64,000 bases of DNA. Source: Sphaerimonospora thailandensis. GTDB lineage: Bacteria; Actinomycetota; Actinomycetes; Streptosporangiales; Streptosporangiaceae. The notes below the pieces were generated by a model. That model had not been told where the DNA came from and did no database searches. It saw only the letters and a list, made by a program, of their open reading frames with translations. Of this stretch, positions 889 through 19,088 are shown one piece after another. Each line of letters opens with the position of its first letter. The stretch's first letter is position 1. The translations under genes and the position numbers were made by a program. The stretch spans positions 62,001-126,000 of the forward strand of contig NZ_BOOG01000013.1 in the NCBI RefSeq assembly GCF_016863115.1. The letters run 5' to 3'.

Positions 889-995
889 CTTCGCATGAAG
901 GTGGCATCGGCTGGAATTGTCAGCATGATGCATGGCTGATCAGGTAGGACCATCGGGGGTCGGTGACGAATAGCTGAGGTAGGAGACGAGGCGTA

Positions 996-3900: not shown

Positions 3901-4199
3901 GACTCACGGAACCGGAACTCGCGTTTTTCGACGCGGTGGCGGCGAACGAGTCGGCTAAAGAAGTCCTTGGTGACGCGGCTTTGGTAGTGATCGCCCGTGA
4001 ACTTGTCGAAGCCATCCGAGGTGACGCTGTGGTGGACTGGATGGAACGGGCTCAGGTACAGGCCAAGCTGCGCAGCAAGGTCAGATATCTGCTGGCCAAG
4101 CATGGATATCCGCCGGACGGCCAGACTGAGGCGGTCAAGCTGGTGTTGGAGCAGACCAAGGTGCTCGCTCAGGAATGGGCTACCACGGCGATGGGCTGA
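996..4199 (+). CDS. hsdR: Type I restriction enzyme subunit R (HsdR), ATP-dependent translocase/endonuclease
   Basis: A 1067-residue protein of normal HsdR length. In order: an N-terminal PD-(D/E)xK nuclease domain (FDIV near residue 147 and ELKK near 162 supply the acidic and lysine residues), a Walker A motif GSGKS near 305, the DEAH box (VDEAHRS) near 413, helicase motif VI (QAVARVNRR) near 670, and a long helical C-terminus that would bind the methylase core. It translocates DNA and cuts unmethylated foreign DNA together with HsdM and HsdS. The ATG at 996 follows a purine-rich AGGAGACGAGG stretch. It lies downstream of hsdS; an hsdM must lie left of the window if the system is complete. 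No lesion is seen. Confidence 0.96.
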   Translation: MGKPGRPPTEEDWEQYALEWLAEWDWLPVKGTEIAPGADPAQRPSWDELIIGPRLRQAIERINPALPSVAVDDVIAQMLRRESQRAFSANRLMHERLTRGVTVSYRDAHGREQNRTAWLLDFENPSANEFLAVNQVIIKHGRHHRRFDIVCYVNGLPLAVFELKKADDPYGTTESAYRQLQTYVREFGPVGFALPAIVIASDGITARYGTPFTPWEHMAPWNTDEEGQRVQIAHGAALEVLIAGLFDPPRFIDIIANFISFSRKNGGIKRVAKAHQFHAVNLAVSRTLLAAARDGRAGVVWHTQGSGKSLEMEFYAAKILQQPALGNPTIVVLTDRTDLDNQLFEEFAASELLGESPVQVASREGLRRELIQRPTGGIVFSTLQKFSLSKEEREASITDHPLLSDRRNIVVIVDEAHRSHYRFIDGLAKNLRQALPNATFIAFTGTPIATAGANTEAVFGPVIDVYDLTRAVQDGATVKVYYENRHIPVRWRADVDPVQIDERVDDVTAELDEDERREAQHAFSIYEEMIQADGRLAKVAADVIDHWERRREGMKKTTGHRGKGMIVCFSRLVCARLYEEIIKLRPQWHHPDDDKGTIKVVYTSRPSDKASVSQHSRSAAHLKEIQRRAVDADDELELVIVRDMWLTGFDSPPLHTLYIDKPMRGAALMQAVARVNRRFKEKDAGLVVDYLGIAESLTQALAQYTVRDQRERTVGDAIASAADLVVERHDVICGILSGCEWRSVRDSGRRRAHVEAALGAVDYLRDPIREAQDREARLETLPKRFAQAYRTMSAALTLCPTHERVMPLMADIRFFDSVRVYMAKFDEDGRRARGLATTQEIEIALRELAAQALDFGEVVDIYTAAGIEKPDITRLDEVFIERFRQSMRPNLAIEALRRRIEEENREANRLNLVRRNAVTSKIEEMFSKRISAAMNRYTNQALGSAQIIERLIELARELQADRERAVRMGLTEPELAFFDAVAANESAKEVLGDAALVVIARELVEAIRGDAVVDWMERAQVQAKLRSKVRYLLAKHGYPPDGQTEAVKLVLEQTKVLAQEWATTAMG

Positions 4200-4286: not shown

Positions 4287-5072
4287 TCAGACGGCCTGCC
4301 AGAGCGCCGGGACGTTCGGCGGCTCCCAACCGGTCAGCGCGGTGTGCCCCTGGATGCACCGGTAGGTGCGGCCGTTGTAGGTGACCAGGTCGCCGGTCTT
4401 GTAGGGCGTGCCGGCGGTCCAGGCGCCGCCGGGGGTCGTCGGAGGAGTCGGCGTGGGCGTCGGGGTCGGCCTCGGCGTGGGGCTGGGGCTCGGGGGCGGG
4501 GTCGGGGTGGGAGTCGGCCTCGGGGTCGGCGTGGGGGTGGGGGTGGGGATGCCCGGGCCGCCGGGGCCGACCTGGAGGTCGACGCAGTTGTAGAAGGCCA
4601 TCGCCGTGTCGGCGATGTTCCAGATCGCGAGCAGCTTGATCCGGCCGGTCCTGTTGCCCAGGTTCACCGTGTGCGTGACGGTGGAACCGGGCAGCCTGCC
4701 GCGGTCGTTGAACTGGGCGATCCGCTCGTTGCCGACGTAGTAGTCCCATGTGCTGGTGGAGTGCCGGGCTTCGATCCGCCACTGGAAGTTGACCGTGCTG
4801 CCGACCGTGGTGACCGGCCACGGCTTGCTGTCGTCGTCGAGCGGAGACCACCGGGCATCGCCGGCGCTGCAGTTGCGCTGACCCTTGGGCCCTTCGACGC
4901 TGGCCGGCTCCCAGATGATCTGCCCGCAGTTGGGGACCTTGCCCATGGCGCACCAGGCCTGCCTGCTCGGCGGGTCCGAGATGTAGCCGTGGGCCGAAGC
5001 GGGCGAGGCCATGACCACCACCGATGTGGCGGCGACGGCGAGTCCCGCCAGGGGCGCGAACAGTTTGCGCAT
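4287..5072 (-). CDS. Secreted AA10 lytic polysaccharide monooxygenase with C-terminal chitin/cellulose-binding module
   Basis: A 261-residue preprotein. A Sec-type signal peptide ends ASPASA, leaving His28 as the mature N-terminus (HGYISDPPSRQ), the first ligand of the copper histidine brace; His104 (EARHSTSTW) fits the second. The catalytic domain runs to about residue 172. A Pro-Thr linker (about 173-212) and a CBM5/12-type domain with conserved aromatics (W, Y, W) follow. The enzyme would oxidatively cleave crystalline chitin or cellulose outside the cell. Substrate and regioselectivity cannot be read from the sequence. It stands alone, with no glycoside hydrolase nearby. A palindrome in its promoter suggests sugar-responsive repression. 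Confidence 0.93.
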   Translation of the reverse strand: MRKLFAPLAGLAVAATSVVVMASPASAHGYISDPPSRQAWCAMGKVPNCGQIIWEPASVEGPKGQRNCSAGDARWSPLDDDSKPWPVTTVGSTVNFQWRIEARHSTSTWDYYVGNERIAQFNDRGRLPGSTVTHTVNLGNRTGRIKLLAIWNIADTAMAFYNCVDLQVGPGGPGIPTPTPTPTPRPTPTPTPPPSPSPTPRPTPTPTPTPPTTPGGAWTAGTPYKTGDLVTYNGRTYRCIQGHTALTGWEPPNVPALWQAV

Positions 5073-5134: not shown

Positions 5135-5704
5135 CCCTCTGTCAGGACCTGGTATGGATCTCTGTCAGGAGGGTGGCTTGATGGCCGGTCACGACGGTCT
5201 GCCGTCGGCCCGGCTCTTTCGCCCCGTCCCCCACGAGGTCGTACGGGCGCGCGCGGCACCTCGCGGGACGCGGTGCCGGGCAGCACGCTCACCGCGCATG
5301 CCGGGCTCCTCACCGCCGTCGGCCGCGGTATCCCCCTCCGCCGGCGGCAGGTCTGATCGGTCGGCGGCTCGAGAGCAACCGCAGTCTCCCCTGCCCGCCA
5401 AGAGCCCAGAAAGAGCGTGCTGGAGGATCTTTGGGGCATGCCTACGGTAAGTCACTTCCTGGGATGCCAGTGGAAACACTTGCATCAAGTGGCCTAGACG
5501 CGTCGGGACAGCACGATTAAGGATCGGAATATGGCCGCTCGGGGGTGATTGCGCCCGAGAAAATTCACCCCCTTTTGTCCCGATCAATCATTTTCGCCGT
5601 TATGGCGATGGGGGAGTGGGGTGGAAACTCCTCGGCCATTCCAGGGCCCAGGAAAACCTGGCGTCCTGACCTGCCTGAGCCCGACCCGGGCCAAAGGAGG
5701 GAAC
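5135..5704. other. Intergenic stretch without a convincing gene
   Basis: About 570 bases with open frames on both strands, none showing a recognisable domain, ribosome-binding site or conserved composition. A direct repeat CTCTGTCAGGA occurs at about 5138 and 5161. The part from about 5450 onwards is more AT-rich and probably holds the promoter of the exported protein gene at 5705. It may contain decayed coding sequence that I could not identify. Confidence 0.5.
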
Positions 5705-6340
5705 ATGCATCGGAAATCCAGTCGACTCGCCCTGGCTCTCTGCGCCTCTACGCTGACGGCCGGCGGCGTCGCGCTGCTCAGCGGACCCGCCTTCGCCGCG
5801 ACCAGCGGGTGGGAAGACTGCGCCGAAGTCGTCGAGTCGTCCTACTCGGCTTCCGAGATCGCGCTGCCGCTTCAGCTGTCCGAAGTGTCCACGGTCTCCA
5901 CGCCGGTCATCTCACAGCCGGTCATCTCACAGCCGGTGCTCGCACAGCGGGTCATCGCGCAGCCTGTGATCGCGCAGCCGGTCCTCGCCGAGCCGATGAA
6001 TGTCTCGGTCAGCTTCCAGCCCGAGTTCTCAAGCCCGCGGTACTTCCAGAGCGAACGGTTCGTGAGCGAGCCGATCTCGTTCCAGTACCGCAGCGCGCGG
6101 TTCTCGAGCGAGCTCCTGCCGTCGCGGTTCGTGCGCGGCGAGCAGAGTCCGCTCGGTGCCCAGGAGCAGGTCGAGGCCGAGGCAAGCGAGGCGAAGTCCC
6201 GCATCCAGCACCACGCGAACGTGGCCAAGGCACGCATCAACCGTGAGGTGCGGAAGTCCGAGCGACGCATCGCCAGCGAGACGCAGAGGAGCGAGAGCAG
6301 CAGGATGGCGGAGACGTCCTGGCTGTCCGACTGCTGCTAG
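5705..6340 (+). CDS. Exported protein of unknown function with VI(S/A)QP repeats
   Basis: A 211-residue protein. The ATG at 5705 is chosen because AAAGGAGGG lies just upstream; the in-frame ATG at 5549 has no such site. A signal peptide ends GPAFA-A. From about residue 66 a run of five-to-six-residue units follows (VISQP, VISQP, VLAQR, VIAQP, VIAQP, VLAEP). Then come Phe/Ser/Arg-rich segments (QSERFVSEPISFQ), a charged helical part from about 155, and a C-terminus ending SDCC. I recognise no enzyme motif. The signal peptide, repeats and terminal Cys pair suggest a cell-surface or matrix protein. A strong terminator follows at once, so it is monocistronic. Confidence 0.8.
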   Translation: MHRKSSRLALALCASTLTAGGVALLSGPAFAATSGWEDCAEVVESSYSASEIALPLQLSEVSTVSTPVISQPVISQPVLAQRVIAQPVIAQPVLAEPMNVSVSFQPEFSSPRYFQSERFVSEPISFQYRSARFSSELLPSRFVRGEQSPLGAQEQVEAEASEAKSRIQHHANVAKARINREVRKSERRIASETQRSESSRMAETSWLSDCC

Positions 6341-6723: not shown

Positions 6724-7740
6724 ATGGCTCGCAGGTCAAACGTCCAGCAGGATCCGCGGATCGCTGGCGACCCCGAGTCGTACCCTCCGGAGGGTCCCGA
6801 CGAGGTGACCACGGGCCGGGGCGTCTCCGCCCGGCGCGGAGGCGGGTGGAGCGGCGGCGGAGGCCGCTGGCTCGTCTGGATCGGCCGCGTCGTCCTCTGG
6901 GCTCTGATCATCGTGATCGTCGTCAACGGCGTCCGTGCCCCGTTCGAACGGCTGAGCCAGGGTGGTGACCCGACGACCGCCAGCAGTCCGAGCGACGTGG
7001 GATTCCCGGTCACCGAGGCGTCCGCGTTCGCCAACCAGTTCGCCGCCGTCTACATGAACTACGACGCCGCCAATCCCCAGCAGAGAGCGGAGCGGTTGAA
7101 GTCGTTCCTCCCCGAGGACGAGGATGACAAGCAGTTCGGCTGGAACGGATATGGACGGATGTCCGCCGGGGCGTTCCAGTTCGCCGGAATCAGCGTGATC
7201 GACGCGCACAACGCTCGCGTCACCGTGTCGTACCAGTCCGGCGGCAGGCGCGGGCTGCTCTCCGTGCCCGTCTATTACGACGGCACCGGGTTGGTCGTGT
7301 CGGAGAAGCCGGCGTTGCTGCCCGAGGCGGCGCCGGCCGGTCTGCCCCCGATCTCCGATCCCGACCGCGACTCCGCCGCCGAGGCCGAACTGCGCCCCCA
7401 GCTTGAGGGTTTCTTCAAGGCGTACGCCGCGGGCAACCAGGTGGATCTGCAGCGCTATGTCGCCAACCGGGTGACGATAGAGGGCTTCAACGGGGAGTTC
7501 ACGCTCACCCAGTTGAAGGACGTGATCGTGCCGCCGGGTGAGGCGAACAGCAGGGATGTCACCGCCGTCGTCGTGTGGGCGGTCGCCTCGGGTGGTGCGG
7601 CTCCGACGCAGACCCCGTCCATCGACGACCCGACGAGACAGCCGGGCGGACTCGAGCAGGCCTACCGGCTCACCATCGAGAAGCAGGGTGACAAGTGGTT
7701 CGTCAGGGACGTCCAGGGCGCGAAGCGGCCCGCGGGGTGA
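6724..7740 (+). CDS. TcpC/VirB8-like conjugal transfer membrane protein
   Basis: A 338-residue protein with a Gly-rich cytoplasmic N-terminus, one membrane helix at about residues 49-69 and a large extracytoplasmic part. That part resembles the two NTF2-like domains of TcpC (Tn916 Orf13 family), whose fold matches VirB8; it holds the FANQFAAVYMNYD and GFFKAYAAGNQVDLQRYV segments typical of each domain. TcpC joins the cell-wall-spanning channel of Gram-positive type IV secretion systems. The ATG at 6724 is chosen over the GTG at 6721 because GGAGG ends only one base before the GTG. First gene of the operon. The family call rests on fold-like segments and gene order. Confidence 0.75.
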   Translation: MARRSNVQQDPRIAGDPESYPPEGPDEVTTGRGVSARRGGGWSGGGGRWLVWIGRVVLWALIIVIVVNGVRAPFERLSQGGDPTTASSPSDVGFPVTEASAFANQFAAVYMNYDAANPQQRAERLKSFLPEDEDDKQFGWNGYGRMSAGAFQFAGISVIDAHNARVTVSYQSGGRRGLLSVPVYYDGTGLVVSEKPALLPEAAPAGLPPISDPDRDSAAEAELRPQLEGFFKAYAAGNQVDLQRYVANRVTIEGFNGEFTLTQLKDVIVPPGEANSRDVTAVVVWAVASGGAAPTQTPSIDDPTRQPGGLEQAYRLTIEKQGDKWFVRDVQGAKRPAG

Positions 7741-7790
7741 CGCATGCCCGATCATGTCATCGCTGATCCATACCCCCGGGAGGGCGAGAA

Positions 7791-8123
7791 TTGATTGTGA
7801 AGACCATGGTGGACGGTTTCATCGATGGAATCGTCGGTTCCGGCGGCTTCGGTGGCAGTGTCCACGATCTGGCCGCCGCACCTTCCCCCGAACCGACGAC
7901 GGGCATCAACACCGCGGGGCTGGCGGATTTCCTCCGGACTTTCTTCGCCCCGCTCTTCCTCGCCGTCGTCTCCGTAGTGGCGATCTTCTTTCTCTTCACC
8001 CGCGAGATCACCAGATTTGTGCAGTTCATCATCTTGGCGATCGCAATCGGCGTGATCTTCTATGTGCCCAACATCATCGAGGTGACGGCCAAGGCCATCG
8101 CGGGCGCACTCGGCATCAAGTGA
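7791..8123 (+). CDS. Small two-helix membrane protein of the secretion operon
   Basis: A 110-residue protein starting at TTG 7791, with GGGAGGG five bases upstream. Two hydrophobic helices lie in the second half (about residues 47-68 and 75-97); the first half is Gly/Ala-rich and weakly hydrophobic. Size and topology resemble VirB2/VirB3- or TrbC-type small subunits, but no family motif is plain, so the role is inferred from position between the TcpC-like and TcpE-like genes. Confidence 0.72.
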   Translation: MIVKTMVDGFIDGIVGSGGFGGSVHDLAAAPSPEPTTGINTAGLADFLRTFFAPLFLAVVSVVAIFFLFTREITRFVQFIILAIAIGVIFYVPNIIEVTAKAIAGALGIK

Positions 8124-8152
8124 CCGAGTGATCGGGCGGAGAGGAGGAACGG

Positions 8153-10807
8153 GTGGATCTGCCCACGTATACCAATATTTGGCGTATTGAGAAGCGGCTG
8201 TACAAGCTGTACGACCTTCGGCTGCCCATGCCGCTTCCCATCGTCTGGATCGGTGTGTTCGTGGGCGTGCTGGTCCCCTGGTGTGTCCTCCTCGCCCTGT
8301 TCGGGTTGCCGTTCCGGGCTCCGTGGCATGTCGTCTACCTGGTGCCGCCCGGCGTGCTGACCTGGCTCTCCACCCGCCCGGTGATCGAGGGCAAGCGGCT
8401 CACCGAGCTCCTGCAGTCCCAGCTCCGCTACCTGGCCGAGCCCCGCACCTGGTGCCGCATGGCTCCGATGGGCGAGCCCGAAGAGATCACCTTCACCGCC
8501 CGGGTATGGCGGGTCACGTCGCCGCAGGCCGTTCCGGCCATCGCCGAAACCACAGCCAAGGCCCCTGCGAGGGGCCCAGCGAGGGTCGCCGTCAGGGCCG
8601 CGGGGAAGACGAGTGGGAAGGCCAAGGCCGCAGCCATGGGGGCGGGGCCGGTCGGGAAGGGCCCTCGGGTGACCGGGTTGCCGACCGCCGAGCCTCCGGC
8701 GCTCGCCCATTCCGCCCGACCAGTGGCCAAGGGCACCGGGCGTCCCGCCCGCGGCGGTTTCCGGGGTGTCGACCATTCGGCCGGCACTGGTTCGTCGGCC
8801 GGCACTGGGGCGTCGGCTACCGCGGTGCCGTCGGCCGACGAGGTGCCGTCGGGCATCGTGCGTCCGGCGGTGGCCGCCGCCGCGGCGGCTGCCGCTCCCA
8901 TCGCCGATGTCCCGTCCTCCGTCTCATGGCGTACGGCTTCCGCGTCCGGGAGGGGCGTCGCGTCGGGGGGTGAGCGTGCGTTCTCCACCACGGAGGCGGG
9001 GACGACGTCCACGGCACGGGAGGCGGCGGAGCCGGTAGCGCCGCCCTCCGCCGGAGCCCAGACCTTGGGCGCCCAGGTTTCGGACGCCCAGGTCTCGGAG
9101 GTTTCGACTTCAGATGTGGCGGCGACCGCGCCGGTCTCGGACGTGCCGGTCTCGGACGTGCCGCCCATCGGGACCGAGGCACTCCGCCGCCTTCGCAGGC
9201 TCGCGGCGTCGGCGGAGAACCGTGCCGTACGGCAGACCGATCCGGCTCCGCGACAGGACGGACCCGCCTGGCAGGAGGAGGCAGCGGAGCACGTCGCAGC
9301 CGAGGCCCCTCCCGTAGAGAGCCGGCGCATGGAGAGCGGGCCCATGGAGAGCGGGCCCATGGAGAGCGGGCTCGCGGAGAGCCATGCCGCCGAGAGCCGC
9401 GGTCCCGGAGTCACCGTCGAGGAGGTGGCCGATCTCGGCAAGCCCGCCGTGAGCGACGAACTCGGGGACGTGGAGCACCCCGCGGAAGCGCGGCGGACGG
9501 GGGATCCGGAGCCCACGAGTGGTGAAGAAGTGGGCACGAGGGCCGCCCGGCGGCGGGATTCCGACGATTGGCAGCGCAGAGCTCGGGAGCAGCACAGGAA
9601 GGGGCGGCCGCCGAAACCCATGCGACCCGAGCAGCCCAAGCGGGAGACGGGGCCGACGCAGCCACCCGTCCAGCCGGTCCACCCCGCACCGTCCGCGCCG
9701 CCCATCCAGCCAGTTCAACCCGTCCAGCCAGTTCACCCCGCACCGTCCGCGCCGCCCGCACAACCGGGGCAGGCCGCTCATCCGTCGCGGGTGCGGCCGG
9801 AGGTCCCGGGGACGGCGATCCGGCCGCCGAAGCTCCAGCCGCCCAAGGTGAGGGGGGAGGAACCGCCCAAGCTCCGCCGGGTCGAGGCCGTCGTCGGCCG
9901 CGACCCCGCCGGCGGCTGGCGGCGGCTCGCCCAGGTCGTCGTGGGCGGAAGCCGTACCGACGGGATGGAGATCGACGAGGCGCGGGCCCGCACGCCGCTC
10001 GCCGACAGCAAGCGGATCATGGTGCTGGGCTGCACGGGTGGCGCCGGACAGACGACCACGGCGCTGATGCTGGGACACTCGCTGGCCCGCTACCGGGAAG
10101 AGCGCGTGCTGGCCCTCGACGCGAGCGGCGGCGACGACACGATGACCAGGCGGATCGCGGCCGCGCCCGCCGAGCGGCTGGGCTCACTCCTCGACGGTGC
10201 CGGATCGCTGACCCGCTACCTCGGCCTCGGCGCGCGTACCTCACGCTGCGGGTCGGGGCTGGAGGTGCTCGGGGCGGACATCGACGACCAGGCGGCGCAG
10301 CGTCTGGCGGACCGGGCGTCGCTCGGCGACTGGAGCCGGACGCTGGCCGTGCTCGATCGCCATTACGGGCTCACCGTGATCGACCCCGCCGCCGCGCTGG
10401 CGGCCCGGCTGCTGCCGTACGCCGACCAGCTCGTGCTGGTGGCCCCCGCGAGCGCGGACGCCCCGGAGGCGATCGCCATGACCTACGAGTGGCTCGACGG
10501 CCACGACTGCTCCGACCTGCGGCGCCGGGGCGTGATGGTGATCAACGGGGTGAGCCGGCGCAGCCTGCCCGAGGTGGAGCAGGCGGAGGCGGTGGCCAGC
10601 GGCCGGTGCCGGGCGATCGTCCGCGTCCCCTGGGAGGACGAGCTCGCGCCAGGCCGTCCGGGACCTGTTGACCTCAACAACCTTCGCGCGGGGGGCCGCA
10701 GGGCGTACGTTGCACTTGCGGGAGTGATCGTGAGCAGCCTGGCCGCGAACCGGCCGAGCGACGCGCACAGGGTCCGAGAACGCGCGGGCGAGAAAGCGGG
10801 TGAGTGA
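8153..10807 (+). CDS. TcpE-like membrane protein fused to a degenerate ParA/MinD-like NTPase domain
   Basis: An 884-residue protein with three parts. Residues 1-115 match TcpE: IEKRLYKLYDLRLPMPLP followed by two membrane helices. Residues about 150-600 are low-complexity Ala/Pro/Ser/Glu sequence with internal repeats (MESGP units; a duplicated HPAPSAPP segment). Residues about 615-870 resemble a ParA/MinD NTPase, with a P-loop-like CTGGAGQTTTALML near 626, DASGGDD and a late V-P-W-E segment. Both P-loop lysines of the ParA consensus (KGGxGKTT) are replaced by Thr and Gln, so ATP binding may be weakened or lost. GTG 8153 follows GAGGAGGAACG. It sits between the small membrane protein and the VirB4 gene. 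Confidence 0.75.
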   Translation: MDLPTYTNIWRIEKRLYKLYDLRLPMPLPIVWIGVFVGVLVPWCVLLALFGLPFRAPWHVVYLVPPGVLTWLSTRPVIEGKRLTELLQSQLRYLAEPRTWCRMAPMGEPEEITFTARVWRVTSPQAVPAIAETTAKAPARGPARVAVRAAGKTSGKAKAAAMGAGPVGKGPRVTGLPTAEPPALAHSARPVAKGTGRPARGGFRGVDHSAGTGSSAGTGASATAVPSADEVPSGIVRPAVAAAAAAAAPIADVPSSVSWRTASASGRGVASGGERAFSTTEAGTTSTAREAAEPVAPPSAGAQTLGAQVSDAQVSEVSTSDVAATAPVSDVPVSDVPPIGTEALRRLRRLAASAENRAVRQTDPAPRQDGPAWQEEAAEHVAAEAPPVESRRMESGPMESGPMESGLAESHAAESRGPGVTVEEVADLGKPAVSDELGDVEHPAEARRTGDPEPTSGEEVGTRAARRRDSDDWQRRAREQHRKGRPPKPMRPEQPKRETGPTQPPVQPVHPAPSAPPIQPVQPVQPVHPAPSAPPAQPGQAAHPSRVRPEVPGTAIRPPKLQPPKVRGEEPPKLRRVEAVVGRDPAGGWRRLAQVVVGGSRTDGMEIDEARARTPLADSKRIMVLGCTGGAGQTTTALMLGHSLARYREERVLALDASGGDDTMTRRIAAAPAERLGSLLDGAGSLTRYLGLGARTSRCGSGLEVLGADIDDQAAQRLADRASLGDWSRTLAVLDRHYGLTVIDPAAALAARLLPYADQLVLVAPASADAPEAIAMTYEWLDGHDCSDLRRRGVMVINGVSRRSLPEVEQAEAVASGRCRAIVRVPWEDELAPGRPGPVDLNNLRAGGRRAYVALAGVIVSSLAANRPSDAHRVRERAGEKAGE
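9329..9373 (+). repeat. Three tandem 15-bp units inside the TcpE-ParA-like gene
   Basis: ATGGAGAGCGGGCCC occurs twice and then a third time with one change (ending CTC), encoding MESGP-MESGP-MESGL. The repeats lie in the low-complexity linker and probably arose by slippage. A second, looser duplication encoding HPAPSAPP lies near 9680-9760. Confidence 0.85.
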
Positions 10808-10810
10808 GCG

Positions 10811-13288
10811 ATGAGCAGGGCGCGAAGCCGCCTGGCGGTGCGGTACTTCGACGATCGCGTCCTTCTCACCGAGTCGGCGGCATGGGCGTACTTCCGGCTG
10901 CCGACGGTGAGCTACGAGTTCCTCACGTCGGAGGAGCGTGAGGCGCTCGCCACCAACATCACCATCGCGCTCGCCGCGATCAGGATGTCCGACGCCGAGG
11001 TGCATCTGCGGATCGCGCACCGGGCCTATCCGGCGGCCGAGTGGGCGATGGCGCTCAACACGACATCCGACGAGGGGCCGGGCTGGCGGGAGTACCTGGA
11101 GGAGATGTATCGCCACGTCTGGGCCAAGGACTTCTGGAGCAAGGAGGTCTACCTGGGCGTACGGCTCGGCCCGCGCGGCGCCCAGCTCGGCGCCGGCGTG
11201 TTGGCCCAGCTCTTCGGCTTCTACCAGCGCGGGGAGAAGGCGCTCGGGATCGAGGACGACCATGTGCCGGCCCGCGAGATCGAGCGGTGGACCGAGGCGG
11301 CGCAGCGGCTCGGCCGGGCCCTCGCCTCCAGCGCCCTCTACGCCCGCCACGCCACCTCTACGGAGATCGCCTGGCTGTTCCAGCACGCCGCCTCCGGGGG
11401 GCTCGGCGACCGGCCGCCGTCGGCGTCGCCGCGGCGCAGGTGGGGCCGGGGCGAGATCGAGTCGCTGGTCGAGGGGCAGATCCACAACGGCCGCTCCCTG
11501 CTTCGCGTGGAGCAGCCGGCGGGTGACAGCTTCGTCGCGCACCTGTCGTTCGCCCGGTTCCCCGACCTCATGGCGTTCCCCGACGGGGAGCCGTGGCTGC
11601 ACTTCGCCGACCAGTTGCCCTTCCCGGTCGAGGTCTCCAGCAGGATGCGGCTGATCCCGCCGGTGCGGGCGAGCAAGGACGTGGCGCGCAAGCTGGCCCA
11701 CGCCCGCGACATGGACATCCACATCCGCGAGGCCGGGGCGGAGGCGCCGCTCGCGCTGGCCGAGCAGATCGACGCCGCCCGCATGCTGGAGCACGGCATC
11801 ACCAAGGAGCGGCTGCCCTTCGTGTACGGATGGCACCGGTTGAGCGTGAGCGCGCCGACGGAGGAGATCTGCGTCCAGCGGGTCGAGGCCGTCGTGGAGC
11901 ACTACCGCGACATCGGCATCGACGTGGTCAACTCCACCGGTGACCAGTTCTCGCTCTTCTGCGAGGCCCTTCCCGGGGAGCGGCTGCGGATCAACGCGTA
12001 CGCCCAGCGGCAGCCGCTGCGGACGATCGCGGGCGGCATGGCGACGGCGACCGTGGAGGTCGGCGACCGGGTGGACGAGTCGAACGCCGGGTGGGCCGGG
12101 CCGTACATCGGCGAGACCCTTGGGCGGGCGCGCGGCATCGTGCACTTCGATCCGCTGGTCGCGGCGGCGCGCAACCGCCCGACGGCCATCGCGATCACCG
12201 GCGAACCGGGCGGCGGCAAGACGACGCTCGCGCTGCTGCTGATCTACCAGATGGCGCTGCGCGGCGTGACCGTCGCGGTGATCGACCCGAAGGGCGACGC
12301 GGAGTCGCTCGTACGGCTCCTGCGGCGGAGCGGCCGCCAGGCGCGGATGATCCCGCTGGGGTCGGCGGCGCCCGGTCTGCTCGATCCGTTCTCGTTCGGC
12401 GACGACATCGCGGCCAGGAAGACGATGGCCAGCGAGACGCTGCGGCTGCTGCTGCCGCGCATGTCGGAGGAGCGCGAGTCGGTCATGATCCAGGCGGTGG
12501 CCGCGGTGTCGAACGAGCCCGACCCGTCGCTGGGCAAGGTGGTCGACCACCTGGAGAGGTCGGAGGACCCCGCGTCGAAGAACCTCGGGGCCGTGCTGCG
12601 GTCGATGTCCGAGATGCATCTGGCCAGGCTCTGCTTCGACCCCTCCGGCGGAGAGCAGATCGACACCGAGGGCTGGACCACGGTGTTCACACTCGGCGGT
12701 CTCACGCTGCCCGACGTCATGACTCCGAGGGACGACTACTCCTACGAGCAGCGGTTGTCGGTGGCCCTGCTCTACCTGGTGTCGCAGTTCGCCCGGCGGC
12801 TGATGAACGGGCTCGACCGGCGCACGCCCAAAGCGATCTTCCTTGACGAGGCCTGGGCGATCACGTCCACGCCGGAGGGCGCCAAGCTGGTGCCCGAGGT
12901 CTCCAGGATGGGCCGGTCCCGCAACACGGCGCTCGTCCTGGTGTCCCAGAACGCGGGCGATCTGCTCAACGAGCAGGTCACCAACTGCCTGTCGTCGGTC
13001 TTCGCTTTCCGCTCGACCGAGCGGGTGGAGGTCGAGCACGTGATGGAGCTCCTCGGCGTGGACCCGTCGGAGGAGCACAAGGCGGTGCTGCGCTCCCTGG
13101 GCAACGGGGAGTGCGTGTTCCGTGATCTGGACGGCCGGGCGGGTCGCATCGGGGTGGACCTGATCTCGGCGGAGCTGCTGCGGTGGCTGGACACGAATCC
13201 GACGCACGAAAAGCCAGGCGAGAACGGAAACGAACTCGATGTCGGGGGTTCCGGTCGGTCGGGGGTCACGCAGGAGGTGCGGTCTTGA
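10811..13288 (+). CDS. VirB4-type secretion ATPase
   Basis: An 825-residue protein with the VirB4/TrbE layout: an N-terminal domain of about 430 residues for contacts with the membrane complex, then a RecA-like motor with Walker A GEPGGGKTT near residue 465 and Walker B KAIFLDEAW near 675, followed by VLVSQNAGDLL and a helical C-terminus. VirB4 powers assembly of, and substrate movement through, type IV secretion channels. It starts three bases after the preceding stop, and its own stop overlaps the next TTG start, so it is translationally linked to both neighbours. All core motifs are intact. Confidence 0.88.
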   Translation: MSRARSRLAVRYFDDRVLLTESAAWAYFRLPTVSYEFLTSEEREALATNITIALAAIRMSDAEVHLRIAHRAYPAAEWAMALNTTSDEGPGWREYLEEMYRHVWAKDFWSKEVYLGVRLGPRGAQLGAGVLAQLFGFYQRGEKALGIEDDHVPAREIERWTEAAQRLGRALASSALYARHATSTEIAWLFQHAASGGLGDRPPSASPRRRWGRGEIESLVEGQIHNGRSLLRVEQPAGDSFVAHLSFARFPDLMAFPDGEPWLHFADQLPFPVEVSSRMRLIPPVRASKDVARKLAHARDMDIHIREAGAEAPLALAEQIDAARMLEHGITKERLPFVYGWHRLSVSAPTEEICVQRVEAVVEHYRDIGIDVVNSTGDQFSLFCEALPGERLRINAYAQRQPLRTIAGGMATATVEVGDRVDESNAGWAGPYIGETLGRARGIVHFDPLVAAARNRPTAIAITGEPGGGKTTLALLLIYQMALRGVTVAVIDPKGDAESLVRLLRRSGRQARMIPLGSAAPGLLDPFSFGDDIAARKTMASETLRLLLPRMSEERESVMIQAVAAVSNEPDPSLGKVVDHLERSEDPASKNLGAVLRSMSEMHLARLCFDPSGGEQIDTEGWTTVFTLGGLTLPDVMTPRDDYSYEQRLSVALLYLVSQFARRLMNGLDRRTPKAIFLDEAWAITSTPEGAKLVPEVSRMGRSRNTALVLVSQNAGDLLNEQVTNCLSSVFAFRSTERVEVEHVMELLGVDPSEEHKAVLRSLGNGECVFRDLDGRAGRIGVDLISAELLRWLDTNPTHEKPGENGNELDVGGSGRSGVTQEVRS

Positions 13289-15693
13289 AGCGATTGCGGC
13301 GCAGGCGGCGCAGGCTGGTCCTGTTCCTGGTGGCCTTCACGGCTTTCGCGGCGTTCGTGACGCTGCCGCTCGTCTTCCCGTCGGGCACGGCGAGCGCGGT
13401 AGGGCCCTGTGACCTGTCCGCCGATCTCGCCCCCGAGATGGTCGGCGGCGGCATCGACGGCCTGGTCCGCCCGCCCGCACCCGACGCCGCCACCGGGGGT
13501 GGCACAGGGAATGGCGCGGCCGCCGCGCCGGAGGCGAAGGAGCCGCTCACCAACTACGAGCGGTACGGCATGTCCGGCCAGTTCTGGCACACCTACGGAC
13601 TCGGCTGCTCGGACGTCGCCGCCGTGCTCGGCAACGCCTGGGCCAACACGGTCTTCTCCTGGGCCAAGGCCGTCGACCGGCTGACGATCAGCACCTACGA
13701 GGCGGCGGCCACCGAAGGACCGCTCCAGCCCATCAAGGAGGCGGCCGACGCGATCGTCACCAAGCTGGCCGACGCCATGTACTGGCCCTATCTGCGGCCC
13801 GTGGTCATCCTCGGCGCGGTCTGGCTCGCCTGGTACGGCCTGATCCGCAGGCGGGCGACGACCACCACCGAGGGCGTCATCTGGATGGTGCTCGCGGTCA
13901 CGGTGGCCGTCTGGTTCTTCAGCCGCCCCGGCGACTTCACCAACATCGGCAAGACCGTGACCGACAAGACCGGCGAGATCGTCAACTCGGCCTTCTCCGG
14001 CCTGCCCGGCGCCGGCGGCGCGTCGTGCCTGCCGCTCAAGGACGACGGCGGCGCGGGGGCGGAGCCGGAGGTCAAAGCAGGGGGGTACGGCAGGCCGGGC
14101 ACGCCGGGGGTCGCCCAGAACGCCGACGCGCTCTGGTCGACGCTCGTCTGCAAGCCGTGGCTGATGGGACAGCTGGGCACGGCCGACCCGAAAGCGCACA
14201 TCGTACAGGACTTCGGCGCAAAGATCCTTAATCTGCAGGCCATCGATGCGGCCGAGCAGGCCGCGAACCAGACGCCGGCCAGCGACGTCCACCAGAAACG
14301 GTTCGAGGAGGAGATCGCCAAGCCGCTGGAGAACACCCCGGTGTTCTTCCTCGTCCAGGGCAAGGACTGGACGAGTCGGCTCGGCATCGCGATAGGCGCG
14401 TTCATCGCCGCCATGGTCGCCGGGCTGCTCATCTTCCTCGTGGCGGTGTCGCTGCTGGTGCTCAAGGTCGGCTTCCTGCTGCTGCTCATGCTGGGGCCGG
14501 TGTTCCTGCTGATCGGCGTGCATCCGGGCTCAGGGCGGATCATCGCGATGCGCTGGGTGGAGATGGTCATCGGCACTCTGCTGCGCCAAGCCGTACTGGC
14601 CGTCGTGCTGGGCGTCCTCGTGTACGGCTACGCACTGATCATCTCGACCGGGCTGCCCTGGGGCATGCAGATCCTGTTCATGGCGCTGCTGACGATCGCC
14701 GTCTTCTTCTACCGGCGGCCGTTCCAGCATCTGTTCTCCTCGATGGACGGGCACACGCTCACGACCCGGATGCTCGGGGAGGCCGCGAGCGCGCCCACGC
14801 TGTCGCGTGCGGCGAACGCGCTGCCTCCGGTGGCCGCGGCGCGGATGGGACGTTGGGGCCTGCGCAAGGCCGAGCCGTTGATCGGCGCCGCCGCGATGGT
14901 GAGCGGCGCGGGCACCGCGGGCGCGGTCGCCGCGTCGGTGGCGCAGGGGCGTGTCCGCGGTGAGGAAGGGGCGGCCGGGCCCGCGGCGGCTCAGGCGGCG
15001 GGACAGACGGGAGAGCAGGTGGGTGCCAGAGCCGGCGGGGCCCAACCCGCGCCGCTGGATGCCGATGCTCAGGCCGCCGGCCGTCGCAGGGCGGGGACGG
15101 CGCCACGCCCGGGATCGGCCCCTCCGCTCAACCTTTCCGGCGTGAGGTCCGCGGGCCCCGCCGGGCCCACGGCCGCTCCGAGTCGCTCGGCCGCCTCGTC
15201 GGGTTCGGTCGCGTCCGGATCGGGCTCCCGGTCGAGCTCTGGACCGGGTTCCGGGTCGGGTTCCGGTGCGACCTCGGGCGGCGGCGCAGGCTCACGCGGT
15301 GGCTGGTTCAGCGGGCGATCGGGCGGCTGGACCTCCCGCGGTTCGAGTGGTTCGCCCAGCTCGAACGGCTCACGCGGCTCACGCGGTTCACGCGGTTCAG
15401 GCGGCGGCTCAGGCTCACGCGGTTCGAACGGGTCCGGAAGGTCCCGGGGTTCCACCGGCTCCGGTGGCATCTTCGGCGGTGGTTCCGGCGGCGGTTCCGG
15501 TGGTGGCATCTTCGGGGGCGGCGGCTTACGCGACCGGGGATCGGCGGATCGCTCATCCCGGTCCGGCGGCTCGTCGTCCGGCAGGGCGTCCGGCGCTCCG
15601 CCGCTGTGGCTGCCCAGCCGGGGGAGCGGCGGGCGGACACCCGACGACGCGCCCACCCCGTTCTGGGCCAAGCCCTCGGACTCCGCCGACTGA
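13285..15693 (+). CDS. VirB6-like polytopic membrane protein with long Gly/Ser-rich tail
   Basis: The start is set at TTG 13285 because AGGAGG lies seven bases upstream and the TTG overlaps the VirB4 stop (TTGA). The protein is then 802 residues and begins with an Arg-rich stretch before its first hydrophobic segment, rather than starting at GTG 13183 inside virB4. Further membrane helices lie at about residues 175-190, 200-215, 370-410, 430-455 and 460-475. This resembles the VirB6/TrbL-type channel protein (Tn916 Orf15 position). From about residue 630 the sequence is Gly/Ser/Arg low complexity (bases 15190-15600) with RGSRGSRGSG and GIFGGG units. The tail is probably disordered and cytoplasmic. 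Confidence 0.78.
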   Translation: MKRLRRRRRRLVLFLVAFTAFAAFVTLPLVFPSGTASAVGPCDLSADLAPEMVGGGIDGLVRPPAPDAATGGGTGNGAAAAPEAKEPLTNYERYGMSGQFWHTYGLGCSDVAAVLGNAWANTVFSWAKAVDRLTISTYEAAATEGPLQPIKEAADAIVTKLADAMYWPYLRPVVILGAVWLAWYGLIRRRATTTTEGVIWMVLAVTVAVWFFSRPGDFTNIGKTVTDKTGEIVNSAFSGLPGAGGASCLPLKDDGGAGAEPEVKAGGYGRPGTPGVAQNADALWSTLVCKPWLMGQLGTADPKAHIVQDFGAKILNLQAIDAAEQAANQTPASDVHQKRFEEEIAKPLENTPVFFLVQGKDWTSRLGIAIGAFIAAMVAGLLIFLVAVSLLVLKVGFLLLLMLGPVFLLIGVHPGSGRIIAMRWVEMVIGTLLRQAVLAVVLGVLVYGYALIISTGLPWGMQILFMALLTIAVFFYRRPFQHLFSSMDGHTLTTRMLGEAASAPTLSRAANALPPVAAARMGRWGLRKAEPLIGAAAMVSGAGTAGAVAASVAQGRVRGEEGAAGPAAAQAAGQTGEQVGARAGGAQPAPLDADAQAAGRRRAGTAPRPGSAPPLNLSGVRSAGPAGPTAAPSRSAASSGSVASGSGSRSSSGPGSGSGSGATSGGGAGSRGGWFSGRSGGWTSRGSSGSPSSNGSRGSRGSRGSGGGSGSRGSNGSGRSRGSTGSGGIFGGGSGGGSGGGIFGGGGLRDRGSADRSSRSGGSSSGRASGAPPLWLPSRGSGGRTPDDAPTPFWAKPSDSAD

Positions 15694-15711
15694 CCTGGTG
15701 ATCACACGTCG

Positions 15712-16374
15712 ATGAGCGCACAGAGAAGTGACAGGGGCAAGGGGCTCGCGTTCGCCGTGGCCGTCGTCGTGCTGGCCGCCGTGGGCCTCTACCTGACGAT
15801 GAATCCACCGACGTCGGAGTCGGAGGGCGGCGACGGCCGTACGGCGGCGGCCGAACCGGCGGCGAGGTCGCCTGAGGCGACCGGCGGTGCGGTGCGCAGC
15901 CCGGTGCCGCGCCAGGTCGCGACCACCCCGGCCGTCTTCGACGTCTACGCCTACCTGCCGCTGTCCCGGCAGGAGCTCGGCGCGGCGGCGGACCTCGCGC
16001 GCCGGTTCACCGAGTCGTACGGAACCTTCCGGTACGACGAGGAGCCGGCGGCGTTCGCCGGACGGCTCAAGGCGTTCGCCACGGACGAGTTCGCCGCGCA
16101 GCTCACCCGGGCCATGACCGATCCGGGGCTGGTGGAGCGCAACCGCGCCGGCCGGGTGGTCTCGCGGGCCTCGGCGGAGGTGAAGAAGATCAGGGACATG
16201 ACCGCCGACCAGGTGGTCTTCGTCGTCGGCTCGGTGCGGCACGTGACGGGCGATGACGGTGACAAGGACGAGAACGACCGGTTCGCCGTGACCGTGATCA
16301 GGGCGGGGAGCGACTGGCGGGTCTACGATCTGGAACTCGCCGACGCGGGCCAGGACGGGGACACGACGCCGTGA
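15712..16374 (+). CDS. Single-pass membrane protein of the secretion operon, possibly TcpC/VirB8-like
   Basis: A 220-residue protein with one membrane helix near residues 9-30, a disordered linker, then a compact domain of about 150 residues. FTESYGTFRYDEEPAAFAGRLK looks like a single NTF2-like domain, so this may be a second, one-domain relative of the TcpC-like protein at the operon start. The ATG at 15712 has a weak ribosome-binding site. Its TGA overlaps the GTG of the following hydrolase gene. No catalytic motif is seen; the role is inferred from the operon. Confidence 0.68.
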   Translation: MSAQRSDRGKGLAFAVAVVVLAAVGLYLTMNPPTSESEGGDGRTAAAEPAARSPEATGGAVRSPVPRQVATTPAVFDVYAYLPLSRQELGAAADLARRFTESYGTFRYDEEPAAFAGRLKAFATDEFAAQLTRAMTDPGLVERNRAGRVVSRASAEVKKIRDMTADQVVFVVGSVRHVTGDDGDKDENDRFAVTVIRAGSDWRVYDLELADAGQDGDTTP

Positions 16375-17513
16375 CCGTGCCGCCCCGTCGGGCGTCGCTT
16401 CAGACGTCGTTCCGGGTGATCTCGGCCCGCGGGCGGTCCCGGCCGGTCCTGGCCATCGTCCTCGCCCTGGCCGTGATCGTCCCGCTCGCGCTCATCGGGT
16501 CGATCATCCTGATGACGCCGCTGCCGTCGTTCCTCCTCGGCGGGAGATCCGCGGAGGACTGCGCGCAGGCCGGTACGATCGCCACCGGCGCGTCGGAGAC
16601 GGCCAGGACGGACATTCCAGCCGAATATCTCGAGCTCTACACGAAGGTCGGCAAGCAGACCGGCGTCCAGTGGAACGTGCTCGCCGCCATCGGCAAGCGC
16701 GAGACCGACCACGGCCGGTCGAAGCTGCCGGGAGTCAGCAGCGGCACCAACTACGCGGGCGCCGCCGGGCCGATGCAGTTCCTGATCAGCACATGGGGCG
16801 GCCAGGCCAAGATCAAGGTCGCGTCGGGAATCAACGGGTACGCCTCGGACGGCGACGGTGACGGGTACGGCGACGTCTACAACCCGGCCGACGCCATCCT
16901 CGGCGCGGCGAAGATGCTCAAGCGCAACGGCGCCCCCGACGACCTCAGGCGCGCGATCTTCGTCTACAACCGGGCCACCTGGTACGTCGACCAGGTCCTG
17001 GAGATCGCCGAGCGCTACGCGGTCACCGGCGACATCGGTCTGCCGCCCGAGGCCGACCCGGCCTGCGACACCAACTATGTGGCCGCGGCCTCCGACGAGG
17101 TCGTGCAGAAGATCCTTGAGTATGCCCTGGACCAGCGCGGCAAGCCGTACCGGTGGGGCGGGACCGGCCCGGATGCCTTCGACTGCTCGGGGATCATCTA
17201 CATGGCCTACCGCAATGCCGGGCTGTCGATCCCCAGGACGACGTTCGAGCAGTGGCCCTTCGGGGTGCGGGTGCAGCAGGGCAGCGAACGGCCGGGTGAT
17301 CTGGTGTTCTTCAACGCCGGGCCGGGCACGTCGGTGGACCGCCCCGGTCACGTGGGCCTGGTGGTCGCGCCGGGGAAGATGGTCGAGGCGCGCTGCACAC
17401 GCTGTGGACCCATCAAAGTCACGACATACGGCGACAGGCCGAACATCGTGGGCTTCACTCGGCCCCTGGAGAACGACCAGGTGCAGGCCCAACTCAGGCA
17501 CGACCTAACGTAG
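16371..17513 (+). CDS. Membrane-anchored bifunctional wall hydrolase (SLT lysozyme-like + NlpC/P60)
   Basis: A 380-residue protein. An N-terminal membrane helix is followed by a transglycosylase-like domain with the likely catalytic Glu at about residue 111 (GKRETDHG) and GPMQF. A C-terminal NlpC/P60 domain carries Cys at about 272 (FDCSG) and His at about 327 (GHVGLV). This two-domain layout is that of Tn916 Orf14/TcpG-type hydrolases, which open peptidoglycan so that a secretion channel can cross the wall. GTG 16371 overlaps the previous stop (GTGA). Catalytic residues appear intact. Last gene clearly tied to the secretion machine. Confidence 0.87.
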   Translation: MTVPPRRASLQTSFRVISARGRSRPVLAIVLALAVIVPLALIGSIILMTPLPSFLLGGRSAEDCAQAGTIATGASETARTDIPAEYLELYTKVGKQTGVQWNVLAAIGKRETDHGRSKLPGVSSGTNYAGAAGPMQFLISTWGGQAKIKVASGINGYASDGDGDGYGDVYNPADAILGAAKMLKRNGAPDDLRRAIFVYNRATWYVDQVLEIAERYAVTGDIGLPPEADPACDTNYVAAASDEVVQKILEYALDQRGKPYRWGGTGPDAFDCSGIIYMAYRNAGLSIPRTTFEQWPFGVRVQQGSERPGDLVFFNAGPGTSVDRPGHVGLVVAPGKMVEARCTRCGPIKVTTYGDRPNIVGFTRPLENDQVQAQLRHDLT

Positions 17514-17519
17514 GCGCTC

Positions 17520-17909
17520 ATGGATTCGACGCGGAAGCTCGTGGTGGGGGCGGCGATCGTACGGGACGGCAGACTGCTCGCCGCGCAACGGGCCGCTCCA
17601 CCGGAGTTGCGGGGCGGCTGGGAGTTCCCCGGCGGCAAGGTGGACCCGGGGGAGAGCGAGCATGAGGCGCTGGTGCGCGAGTGCGCCGAGGAACTCGGCA
17701 TCGAGATCCTCGTCGGAGGCCGGGTGGGCGGGGACTGGCCGCTGCCCGGCGGGCATGTCATGCGGGTCTGGCTCGCGGCCATCGCGGCGGGCGTCCCGTA
17801 CCCGCGTGAGCACCTCGCGCTGCGCTGGCTGGAGCCGCGCGAGCTGTACGAGGTCGCCTGGATCCCGGCAGATCTGCCGATCGTCGCCGCCGTCGCGAAG
17901 CTCCTGTGA
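17520..17909 (+). CDS. NUDIX hydrolase (MutT-like)
   Basis: A 129-residue protein with a complete Nudix box (GGKVDPGESEHEALVRECAE plus ELGI) at about residues 40-63, preceded by GGWEFPGG, the arrangement seen in MutT-type (8-oxo-dGTP or related) pyrophosphatases. The enzyme removes nucleoside-diphosphate-linked products; the true substrate is not shown. ATG 17520 is six bases after the hydrolase stop, so it may be co-transcribed with the secretion genes although nothing links it to them functionally. Confidence 0.88.
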   Translation: MDSTRKLVVGAAIVRDGRLLAAQRAAPPELRGGWEFPGGKVDPGESEHEALVRECAEELGIEILVGGRVGGDWPLPGGHVMRVWLAAIAAGVPYPREHLALRWLEPRELYEVAWIPADLPIVAAVAKLL

Positions 17910-18026
17910 CGTACGAGCTTTTTGAGGGGCGAATTCGTGACCTAGAAGGGCTTTGCCGGGCGTTTGACGTAACTAGAATCTTTCTTGACTTTAGGTGGCA
18001 CGCGACATCGTGGAGGGCGAGCGGTG

Positions 18027-19088
18027 ATGGGACGCGCAAAGATCAGGGCCGCGTCCTCGGCCATCGCCTCGCTGGCTCTGGCCACGCTGGCCGTGCTCGC
18101 CGTGGGACCGGCGATCAGCGCCAGCGCGGCCGACGATCCGCCGGTAGAGCCGTGCCGACCGGGCGAGTGCGACACCGTCACCGTGACCATCACCCAGACG
18201 CCCGGGACAAGTCCATCGCCGACCGGAGATCCGGTCGTCACGGCGACCGTCACGGTCACCCCGACGCCTCCGCGGCCGAGCACGACCAAGACGGCCGCCG
18301 CACAGCAGAAGCCCGACGACGTCTCGGCCCCGATCCCGACAAAGCTGGCGGACATCCCGAACACCTCGGACCTCACGGATCCCACGGGCACCACAGACGA
18401 CGGGTCGGACGTCTCCCTGCCTCCGGCGACGACACCGCCCCCGGCACAGGAACCGGCGCCGACCACGGCACCCGAGCAGACGCCCACCCAGGGCATGTCG
18501 TTCGAAGCGCCCGCGCCGGAATCAGCGCAGTACGAGATCCGCAGCGCCTCGCCGGAGTTCGACAAACCGGCGCTGGCCAACAAGCTCGCGATCCCCGCCG
18601 CCGTACTCGTGGTGCTCGCCCTGCTCGCGTGGCTCGTGTTCGAGGGCCGGCTGCGCCGGATGGCGCACGCGGCGGCCGTCGGGAAGGCCGGTCCGCAGGC
18701 GAAGACCACCGGCGGGCCGGAGGCGGCCGCCTATCCGGGGGCGCCGGGCTACGCCGTCGGTTTCGTGCCGGTTCAGCCGTACCCGGTGTATCCCCAGCAG
18801 GCACCGTACGGCTACCCGATGCCCTACGGCACTCCCCACCCGTACGGTGCCCCGCCGCAGGCGTACGGGGCCCAACCGCAGGGCTACGGGCCCCCGCCGC
18901 AGGGGTACGGCGCCCAGCCGCAGGCGTACAGTCAGACGCCGTATCCTCCGCAGGGATACCCGGCGTACTACCAGCAGGCCCAGCCGATGCCTCAGGGTCA
19001 CGCCGAGACTCCGCCGCAGGGCGCCCCCGCACCGCAGGCCCCCCCGCCAGCCGCCGCACCAGGCCCCGACGACCACCCCCGCGCGTGA
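18027..19088 (+). CDS. Membrane-anchored surface protein with Thr/Pro-rich ectodomain and PYG/AQPQ-repeat tail
   Basis: A 353-residue protein. ATG 18027 is preferred over upstream starts because GGAGGGCGAG lies 6-15 bases before it and a signal peptide (ending ISASA) follows directly. The ectodomain (about 33-190) is Thr/Pro/Asp-rich. A second hydrophobic helix (about 190-208) is followed by basic residues and then a cytoplasmic tail of repeated Pro-Tyr-Gly-Ala-Pro-Pro-Gln units (bases about 18770-18980). A possible promoter (TAGAAT at 17974-17979) lies upstream. No domain is recognised. It closes the secretion region on the same strand and may be an accessory protein, but that is inference. 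Confidence 0.75.
   Translation: MGRAKIRAASSAIASLALATLAVLAVGPAISASAADDPPVEPCRPGECDTVTVTITQTPGTSPSPTGDPVVTATVTVTPTPPRPSTTKTAAAQQKPDDVSAPIPTKLADIPNTSDLTDPTGTTDDGSDVSLPPATTPPPAQEPAPTTAPEQTPTQGMSFEAPAPESAQYEIRSASPEFDKPALANKLAIPAAVLVVLALLAWLVFEGRLRRMAHAAAVGKAGPQAKTTGGPEAAAYPGAPGYAVGFVPVQPYPVYPQQAPYGYPMPYGTPHPYGAPPQAYGAQPQGYGPPPQGYGAQPQAYSQTPYPPQGYPAYYQQAQPMPQGHAETPPQGAPAPQAPPPAAAPGPDDHPRA

Follow-up and report, generated by a model that had tools for sequence, protein, structure and literature searches.

The window analysed here is a 64,000-nucleotide stretch of the Sphaerimonospora thailandensis genome (NZ_BOOG01000013.1, positions 62,001 to 126,000 of the forward strand), and our subject is a type IV secretion system (T4SS) block at window positions 6724-17513, to which no relaxase or type IV coupling protein (T4CP) gene is linked. 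The block is made of seven co-directional + strand genes, separated by no more than about 50 bases where they do not overlap, as several of their ends do. This arrangement, first proposed by a reading of the letters without database searches (hereafter, the sequence-only reading), was confirmed for all seven genes by profile and structure matches, complemented by a scan for transmembrane (TM) segments:

6724..7740, + strand: TcpC-family (VirB8-like) protein (PF12642, E 1.2e-14), with one N-terminal TM segment in the TM scan
7791..8123, + strand: small subunit with two TM segments (TM scan), VirB2/TcpD-like through place and topology only
8153..10807, + strand: TcpE-MinD-like fusion of 884 aa (PF12648, E 6.8e-23)
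10811..13288, + strand: VirB4 ATPase (AAA_10, E 1.1e-67), with Walker A GEPGGGKTT and Walker B FLDEAW
13282..15693, + strand: VirB6/TrbL membrane protein with a low-complexity C-terminal tail (PF04610, E 4.2e-9)
15712..16374, + strand: second VirB8-fold (NTF2-like), membrane-anchored protein (AlphaFold model, mean pLDDT 84.6)
16371..17513, + strand: membrane-anchored wall hydrolase, SLT transglycosylase plus NlpC/P60 (VirB1-like; profile matches)

On inspection of the sequence, GGAGG precedes the GTG/ATG start of the TcpC gene. The start of the VirB6 gene more likely lies at about 13282 than at the first listed position, 13183 (the gene caller chose 13330), and a scan for promoters and terminators gave no useful signal. 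VirB4 and VirB6 also match the NCBIfam TcpF ATPase (E 4.8e-71) and NF046089 (E 2.2e-21), respectively, the former under its curated cut-off and the latter below its own. The small subunit has no Pfam match above cut-off, hence no match to a pilin family. Likewise, no Pfam family above cut-off was found for the VirB8-like protein at 15712-16374, for which the best Foldseek matches of the structural model include TraM (E 3.9e-5), an IcmL-like protein, PrgL, DotI and CagV (E 3.9e-5 to 5e-4), and for which the sequence profile matches OmamC (E 7.9e-6). The motifs that we take to be catalytic are conserved both in VirB4, with intact Walker motifs across the loci of our motif survey, and in the wall hydrolase, where they are kept across 89 tblastn hits.

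With VirB4 encoded together with VirB3 (TcpE), VirB6, VirB8 and VirB1-like parts, the block has the composition of a monoderm apparatus (MPF-FA/FATA-like, MPF standing for mating-pair formation). It resembles in this the Tcp/Con conjugation systems (pCW3, ICEBs1), with their VirB1-, VirB3 (TcpE)-, VirB4-, VirB6- and VirB8-like set, but differs from them in having no linked relaxase or T4CP and in its MinD-like fusion, and its VirB4 is about 30% identical to those of Bacillus plasmids. In the sections of PMC12857230 covered here, TcpE is given as the likely VirB3, encoded upstream of virB4.

The TcpE assignment of the sequence-only reading held, but it had missed that the open reading frame is a fusion. 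Its 884 codons encode the TcpE part (about residues 5-103), a long low-complexity linker and a MinD-like domain (about residues 601-884). The AlphaFold model of the latter (mean pLDDT 84.2, pTM 0.86) matches FlhG (E 1.8e-9), ParA, Soj and MinD, so that the domain has the MinD/ParA fold. MinD/ParA proteins carry a deviant Walker A signature with two lysines, KGGxGK[ST]. In the fused domain, both signature lysines are missing: the P-loop reads GCTGGAGQ[TS], and a glutamine has replaced its lysine. This glutamine (GGAGQ or a close variant) is found in all 136 readable chromosomal copies among 141 tblastn hits, some loci of which are the same genome represented twice; three further hits are unreadable and the remaining two are Nocardiopsis plasmid copies with KGGVGKTT. 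It is also invariant in alignment A3 (35 of 35 rows, chosen from 94 usable hits), and a sister-family genome carries it in an open frame of 1006 residues, with matches to the TcpE and the MinD profiles alike. Mean column identity reaches 69% for the MinD-like domain (A3), compared with 46% for the VirB8-like protein, which indicates that the domain is kept. Judging from the residues lost, it probably cannot hydrolyse ATP, and loss of the P-loop lysine makes it probably a scaffold or a positioning protein or substrate receptor rather than an ATPase. Positioning proteins of the MinD/ParA type include VirC1. FlhG, Soj and TadZ share the fold with the fused domain, which differs from them by its glutamine and by its fusion to a T4SS membrane subunit.

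Distribution, synteny and descent

The VirB4 gene was found in 197 of the 200 genomes searched in the window's family (code f1, which we infer to be Streptosporangiaceae), the three misses being genomes that are 67-74% complete, and in all 170 family genomes with at least 90% completeness and at most 5% contamination. The variable presence among relatives that the sequence-only reading had expected of a mobile element is therefore not what is seen. Identity within the family is about 76-96% among the matches listed; among 80 of the 258 confirmed stretches, GTDB relatives belong to Sphaerimonospora, Microbispora, Microtetraspora, Nonomuraea, Streptosporangium and similar genera, and the nearest VirB4 is that of Sphaerimonospora mesophila (96%). 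At the level of the order, VirB4 was present in 147 of 150 genomes, including the single genome of family f68 (81% identity) and none of the three of family f69. A search of the class at E 1e-60 recovered 51 of 394 genomes, of which 48, the window's genome among them, are of its own family and the other three match at 32% identity. A search of the phylum at E 1e-30 recovered 16 of 296, i.e., the own genome and 15 others (best identities 50, 48 and 40%, the rest 27-33%). Beyond the order, VirB4 relatives in the genomes searched thus have at most 50% identity. Twelve genomes with two VirB4 matches were searched again: in four of them the second match is a further piece of the one VirB4 gene, cut by a contig end (G024, G144) or by a split frame (G119, G123), and in the other eight it belongs to another system, 27-31% identical.

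Gene order, for which the sequence-only reading had proposed a comparison, is equally stable. All 79 loci with 8 kb of upstream sequence have TcpC, the small subunit and TcpE ahead of VirB4 on its strand, and 77 of the 78 with 8 kb of downstream sequence have VirB6, the VirB8-like protein and the hydrolase after it, not all of these loci being independent. In G164 (L117, L163), about 7 kb of other genes separates virB4 from virB6, with the last three genes intact. The flanks are often shared too (ychF upstream in 64/79 loci, NUDIX downstream in 69/78, SdhB downstream in 54/78), and the rmuC/ychF flanking order is also kept in the sister-family genome, gene names there coming from sequence reading.

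Pairwise VirB4 distances track those of two neighbours. Against YchF, r is 0.896 (60 loci), and the mean distance over the same pairs is 0.117 for VirB4 vs. 0.136 for YchF; against SdhA, r is 0.916 (25 loci), and the means are 0.091 for VirB4 vs. 0.106 for SdhA. The ratio of non-synonymous to synonymous substitution rates (dN/dS) of VirB4 is 0.083 and 0.108 against two relatives, and that of the other genes (VirB6 not covered) ranges from 0.15 to 0.54. By these sequence measures, the block is a near-universal single orthologue that is vertically inherited under strong purifying selection. It does not have a patchy distribution and does not act as a mobile element.

Relaxases, coupling proteins and plasmid relatives

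The sequence-only reading saw neither a relaxase nor a coupling ATPase at the block, and none is linked to it. For the T4CP, this extends to the own genome, in which no match to PF12696, PF02534 or the plasmid VirD4 was found (VirD4-type T4CP). For the relaxase, it does not: our searches, which covered TrwC, MobA_MobL and PF03432 only, returned no TrwC and no MobA_MobL, but one PF03432 protein on another contig. We also surveyed 30 chosen near-complete genomes of the family, all with the block. Of these, 14 have a VirD4-type match, 11 to the plasmid VirD4 and 13 to PF02534; TrwC was found in four, PF03432 in nine and MobA_MobL in none. Neither VirD4-type signal is present in 16 genomes, and all five signals are missing from 14. 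Only G021 among the 30 has a VirD4-like gene near the block, and its congener G076 has none.

Three other loci of the family came up in this survey. Contig C1 of G012 (L197-L199; 62,024 bases) carries a MobF relaxase together with pieces of VirD4 spread over several frames, with no VirB4, VirB6, TcpC or TcpE match in the 60,000 bases read; it is a possible borrower of the host apparatus. L164 (G063) and L193 (G085) are other VirD4-bearing clusters, apparently of different systems, one of which has an M23 peptidase, a ParB-like gene and a weak EccE match under cut-off, and the other a TraG/AAA_10-like ATPase under cut-offs.

Among plasmid records, four have a VirB4 at least 60% identical to that of the window. 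One, NZ_LT559118.1 (11.85 Mb), is filed as a plasmid of Nonomuraea gerenzanensis and is surely the chromosome. The other three are Nocardiopsis plasmids (NZ_CP099838.1, NZ_CP080600.1 and NZ_CP074136.1; VirB4 identity 71-74%), two of them nearly equal in length (144.77 kb), which carry a cousin of the apparatus. Resemblance extends to TcpE (59-62%), the small subunit (64% over 89 columns, the plasmid protein having 95 aa), TcpC (33%) and VirB6 (29% over 472 columns), and VirB8-like, SLT and MinD homologues are there as well. In contrast to the block, the plasmid gene order is broken up across both strands, and TcpE and MinD are separate genes, the latter with the canonical P-loop KGGVGKTT. Against the chromosomal-domain profile, the plasmid MinD scores E 2.5e-50 and 1e-44, far better than the ParA of the same plasmid (0.006), which makes MinD a real shared component. 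Both NZ_CP099838.1 and NZ_CP080600.1, the first viewed whole and the second in part, are typed as non-mobilizable in PLSDB.

The direction of transfer between plasmid and chromosome varies with the tree, the plasmids branching either inside or outside the chromosomal copies. VirB4 trees place them inside the family, without rejecting chromosomal monophyly (approximately unbiased (AU) test on VirB4 alone, p 0.239), while the seven joined proteins reject it (AU p 0.0038, from a quick tree with one long-branch outgroup). An older split is favoured by the plasmid MinD, separate and canonical, which shares 27-36% identity with each of the chromosomal copies compared. In two more distant relatives, L128 and L129, TcpE stands alone and the stretches examined contain no MinD match; a T4CP-like gene lies near L129. 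At L128 (G414) 14916-18711, the relative of the block (VirB4 48% identical) adjoins a STAND-type regulator, a Pvc16_N gene (as in contractile injection systems) and a 1455-aa Ig-like/propeller-repeat protein.

Flanking genes

Two + strand genes follow the block before sdhB and sdhA, which lie on the - strand:

17520..17909, + strand: NUDIX hydrolase (PF00293, E 3.8e-17), starting 6 bases past the block
18024..19088, + strand: low-complexity membrane protein, with TM segments at 26-44 and 201-219 of a 367-aa reading

The NUDIX gene is a neighbour in part of the family and is excluded from the T4SS parts. The second protein, with a Pro/Tyr/Gln-rich tail after its second TM segment, has no Pfam or NCBIfam match. 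It is the surface protein that the sequence-only reading (at 18027) had put forward as a partner or substrate, a suggestion that did not survive as a family-wide role: its cluster is present in 15 of 38 gene-called stretches, no match was found in loci of more divergent clades (L112-L122, L124-L126), and a homologue stands next to the block in only part of the family.

Upstream, ychF lies on the same strand at C13:47053-48141, about 20.6 kb from the block, and the interval contains sugar-transporter, regulator, type I restriction-modification and lytic polysaccharide monooxygenase (LPMO) genes. The restriction-modification genes hsdR and hsdM (window 996-4199 and C13:60089-61669) coincide in part with a region of lower GC (about 0.59-0.62 over window 1-4000). 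The LPMO (4287-5072, - strand) is a chitin- or cellulose-active AA10 enzyme with a CBM5/12 module, and a small secreted Val/Gln/Pro repeat-rich protein (5549-6340), matched in Microbispora loci only (six loci), precedes the block. There is no tRNA within the window, and no search aimed at att repeats or integrase was made.

Function of the apparatus

That the block is domesticated, as the sequence-only reading had suggested, is very likely: it has no linked relaxase or T4CP, it is not variable among relatives and it is kept where no VirD4-type T4CP is found, so that the term fits well. Our best explanation, which we regard as reasonably probable, is a domesticated, lineage-core and non-conjugative T4SS that would serve as a protein exporter. 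A monoderm (Tcp) T4SS would have entered the chromosome before the window's family split from its sister family, its relaxase and VirD4-type T4CP being lost or never present, and the apparatus would have become core and vertically inherited. Following the known roles of these families, the hydrolase would open the wall, VirB6 and the two VirB8-fold proteins would form the channel and VirB4 would supply the energy, while the pseudo-MinD domain on TcpE may place the machine or dock its cargo. These component roles are described in part in the covered sections of PMC12857230 and PMC12102498. What the sequences show directly is gene content, conservation, synteny, the lack of linked DNA-processing genes and the lost lysine, from which protein export, enzymatic activity and the part played by the MinD-like domain are deduced.

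The cargo would be one or a few proteins moved without VirD4, like those of Bordetella Ptl and Brucella VirB, since strong constraint and no T4CP make export of a small protein set the simplest reading. Both Ptl and Brucella VirB are protein exporters, and they share with the block a T4SS function without a VirD4 T4CP; they differ in being diderm systems with outer-membrane parts, confined to single genera instead of forming a family-wide core. In the sections of PMC12102498 covered, these two are named as exceptions among T4SSs in lacking a T4CP. The same sections describe Patescibacteria T4SSs that are, like the block, chromosomal, monoderm and mostly without a relaxase, and for which co-option is proposed; these belong to another phylum, have many VirD4-type T4CP genes and VirB2-like pilins, and no MinD-like fusion is mentioned for them there. 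A Gram-positive T4SS reported to secrete protein, that of Streptococcus suis 89K (PMC12857230, sections covered), carries VirD4 and sits on a mobile island, unlike the block. Protein as the main cargo is an evenly balanced proposition. It is a rather doubtful further step, though one worth stating, that a catalytically dead MinD domain on VirB3 may have taken over the docking or positioning role of VirD4, which would define a T4SS subclass of this lineage.

Several observations weigh against this explanation. SdhB distances correlate weakly with those of VirB4 (r 0.419, 50 loci), and the split VirB4 frames of G119 and G123 suggest that some copies may be broken or mis-assembled. A search for an FtsK/SpoIIIE (TcpA)-type T4CP with one query gave a single weak match (24%) on contig C21 of the own genome. 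VirD4-type T4CPs do occur somewhere in 14 of the 30 surveyed genomes, and in G021 the VirD4-like gene follows the hydrolase gene on its strand, at a distance of about 5 kb. The PF03432 relaxase of the own genome, of MobP type (C7:252510), adjoins a NikA-like gene, with no T4SS seen alongside. Finally, NZ_CP099838.1 carries a MobF relaxase and a VirD4-type gene elsewhere on the plasmid, which means that an apparatus of this type can serve conjugation.

The last two points, along with the small G012 contig and its MobF and VirD4 pieces, would favour a DNA machine, either for T4CP-less uptake or release, for which ComB and Ced are possible parallels, or as a conduit borrowed by mobilizable elements that bring a relaxase and T4CP of their own. 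We nevertheless consider such a machine unlikely: 14 of the 30 block-bearing genomes show no VirD4-type T4CP, TrwC, PF03432 or PF03389 relaxase, and lending to passing elements poorly explains why so old an orthologue is kept in single copy, with strong purifying selection acting on it.

Less likely still is a structure of the wall or of development, in which a VirB4-driven complex would build a surface fibre or a septal or hyphal channel, with no soluble cargo. The presence of the block throughout a family of filamentous bacteria, its membrane-anchored wall hydrolase and the fold of its MinD-like domain, which is used for positioning, would all suit it, but the two-TM subunit has no pilin-family match, and most of the remaining genomes sampled in the class, presumably including many filamentous ones, do not have the block. 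Although every part has relatives in conjugative elements, an integrative conjugative element or a decaying remnant is highly improbable and was rejected through distribution, synteny, distances and selection, given a near-universal single orthologue in a conserved neighbourhood, with no linked relaxase or T4CP and no tRNA in the window. We also rejected a phage origin (viral contigs gave no match, and the matches in four phage records reach only 22-28%) and a defence system: VirB4 does match PADLOC mad8 (E 1.9e-14), but over the ATPase part alone, which we take as generic.

Our literature search, which covered subscription journals thinly, found no published description of this T4SS among the papers listed, nor any paper on a conserved T4SS of Streptosporangiaceae, and the sections of PMC3218068 covered do not mention Thermobifida, Streptosporangium, Thermomonospora or Nocardiopsis. 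According to a 2025 review (PMC12857230, sections covered), it is a long-standing question whether T4SSs of Gram-positive bacteria have become dedicated translocators of effectors. A T4SS that is core to one family of drug-producing soil bacteria, in genomes that often have neither a VirD4-type T4CP nor any of the relaxases searched for, makes this question testable in non-pathogenic strains, and its fused pseudo-MinD subunit offers a handle on how a T4SS may work without VirD4. If the docking role of that subunit is real, free-living Gram-positive bacteria would own a dedicated, family-wide and non-conjugative secretion machine.

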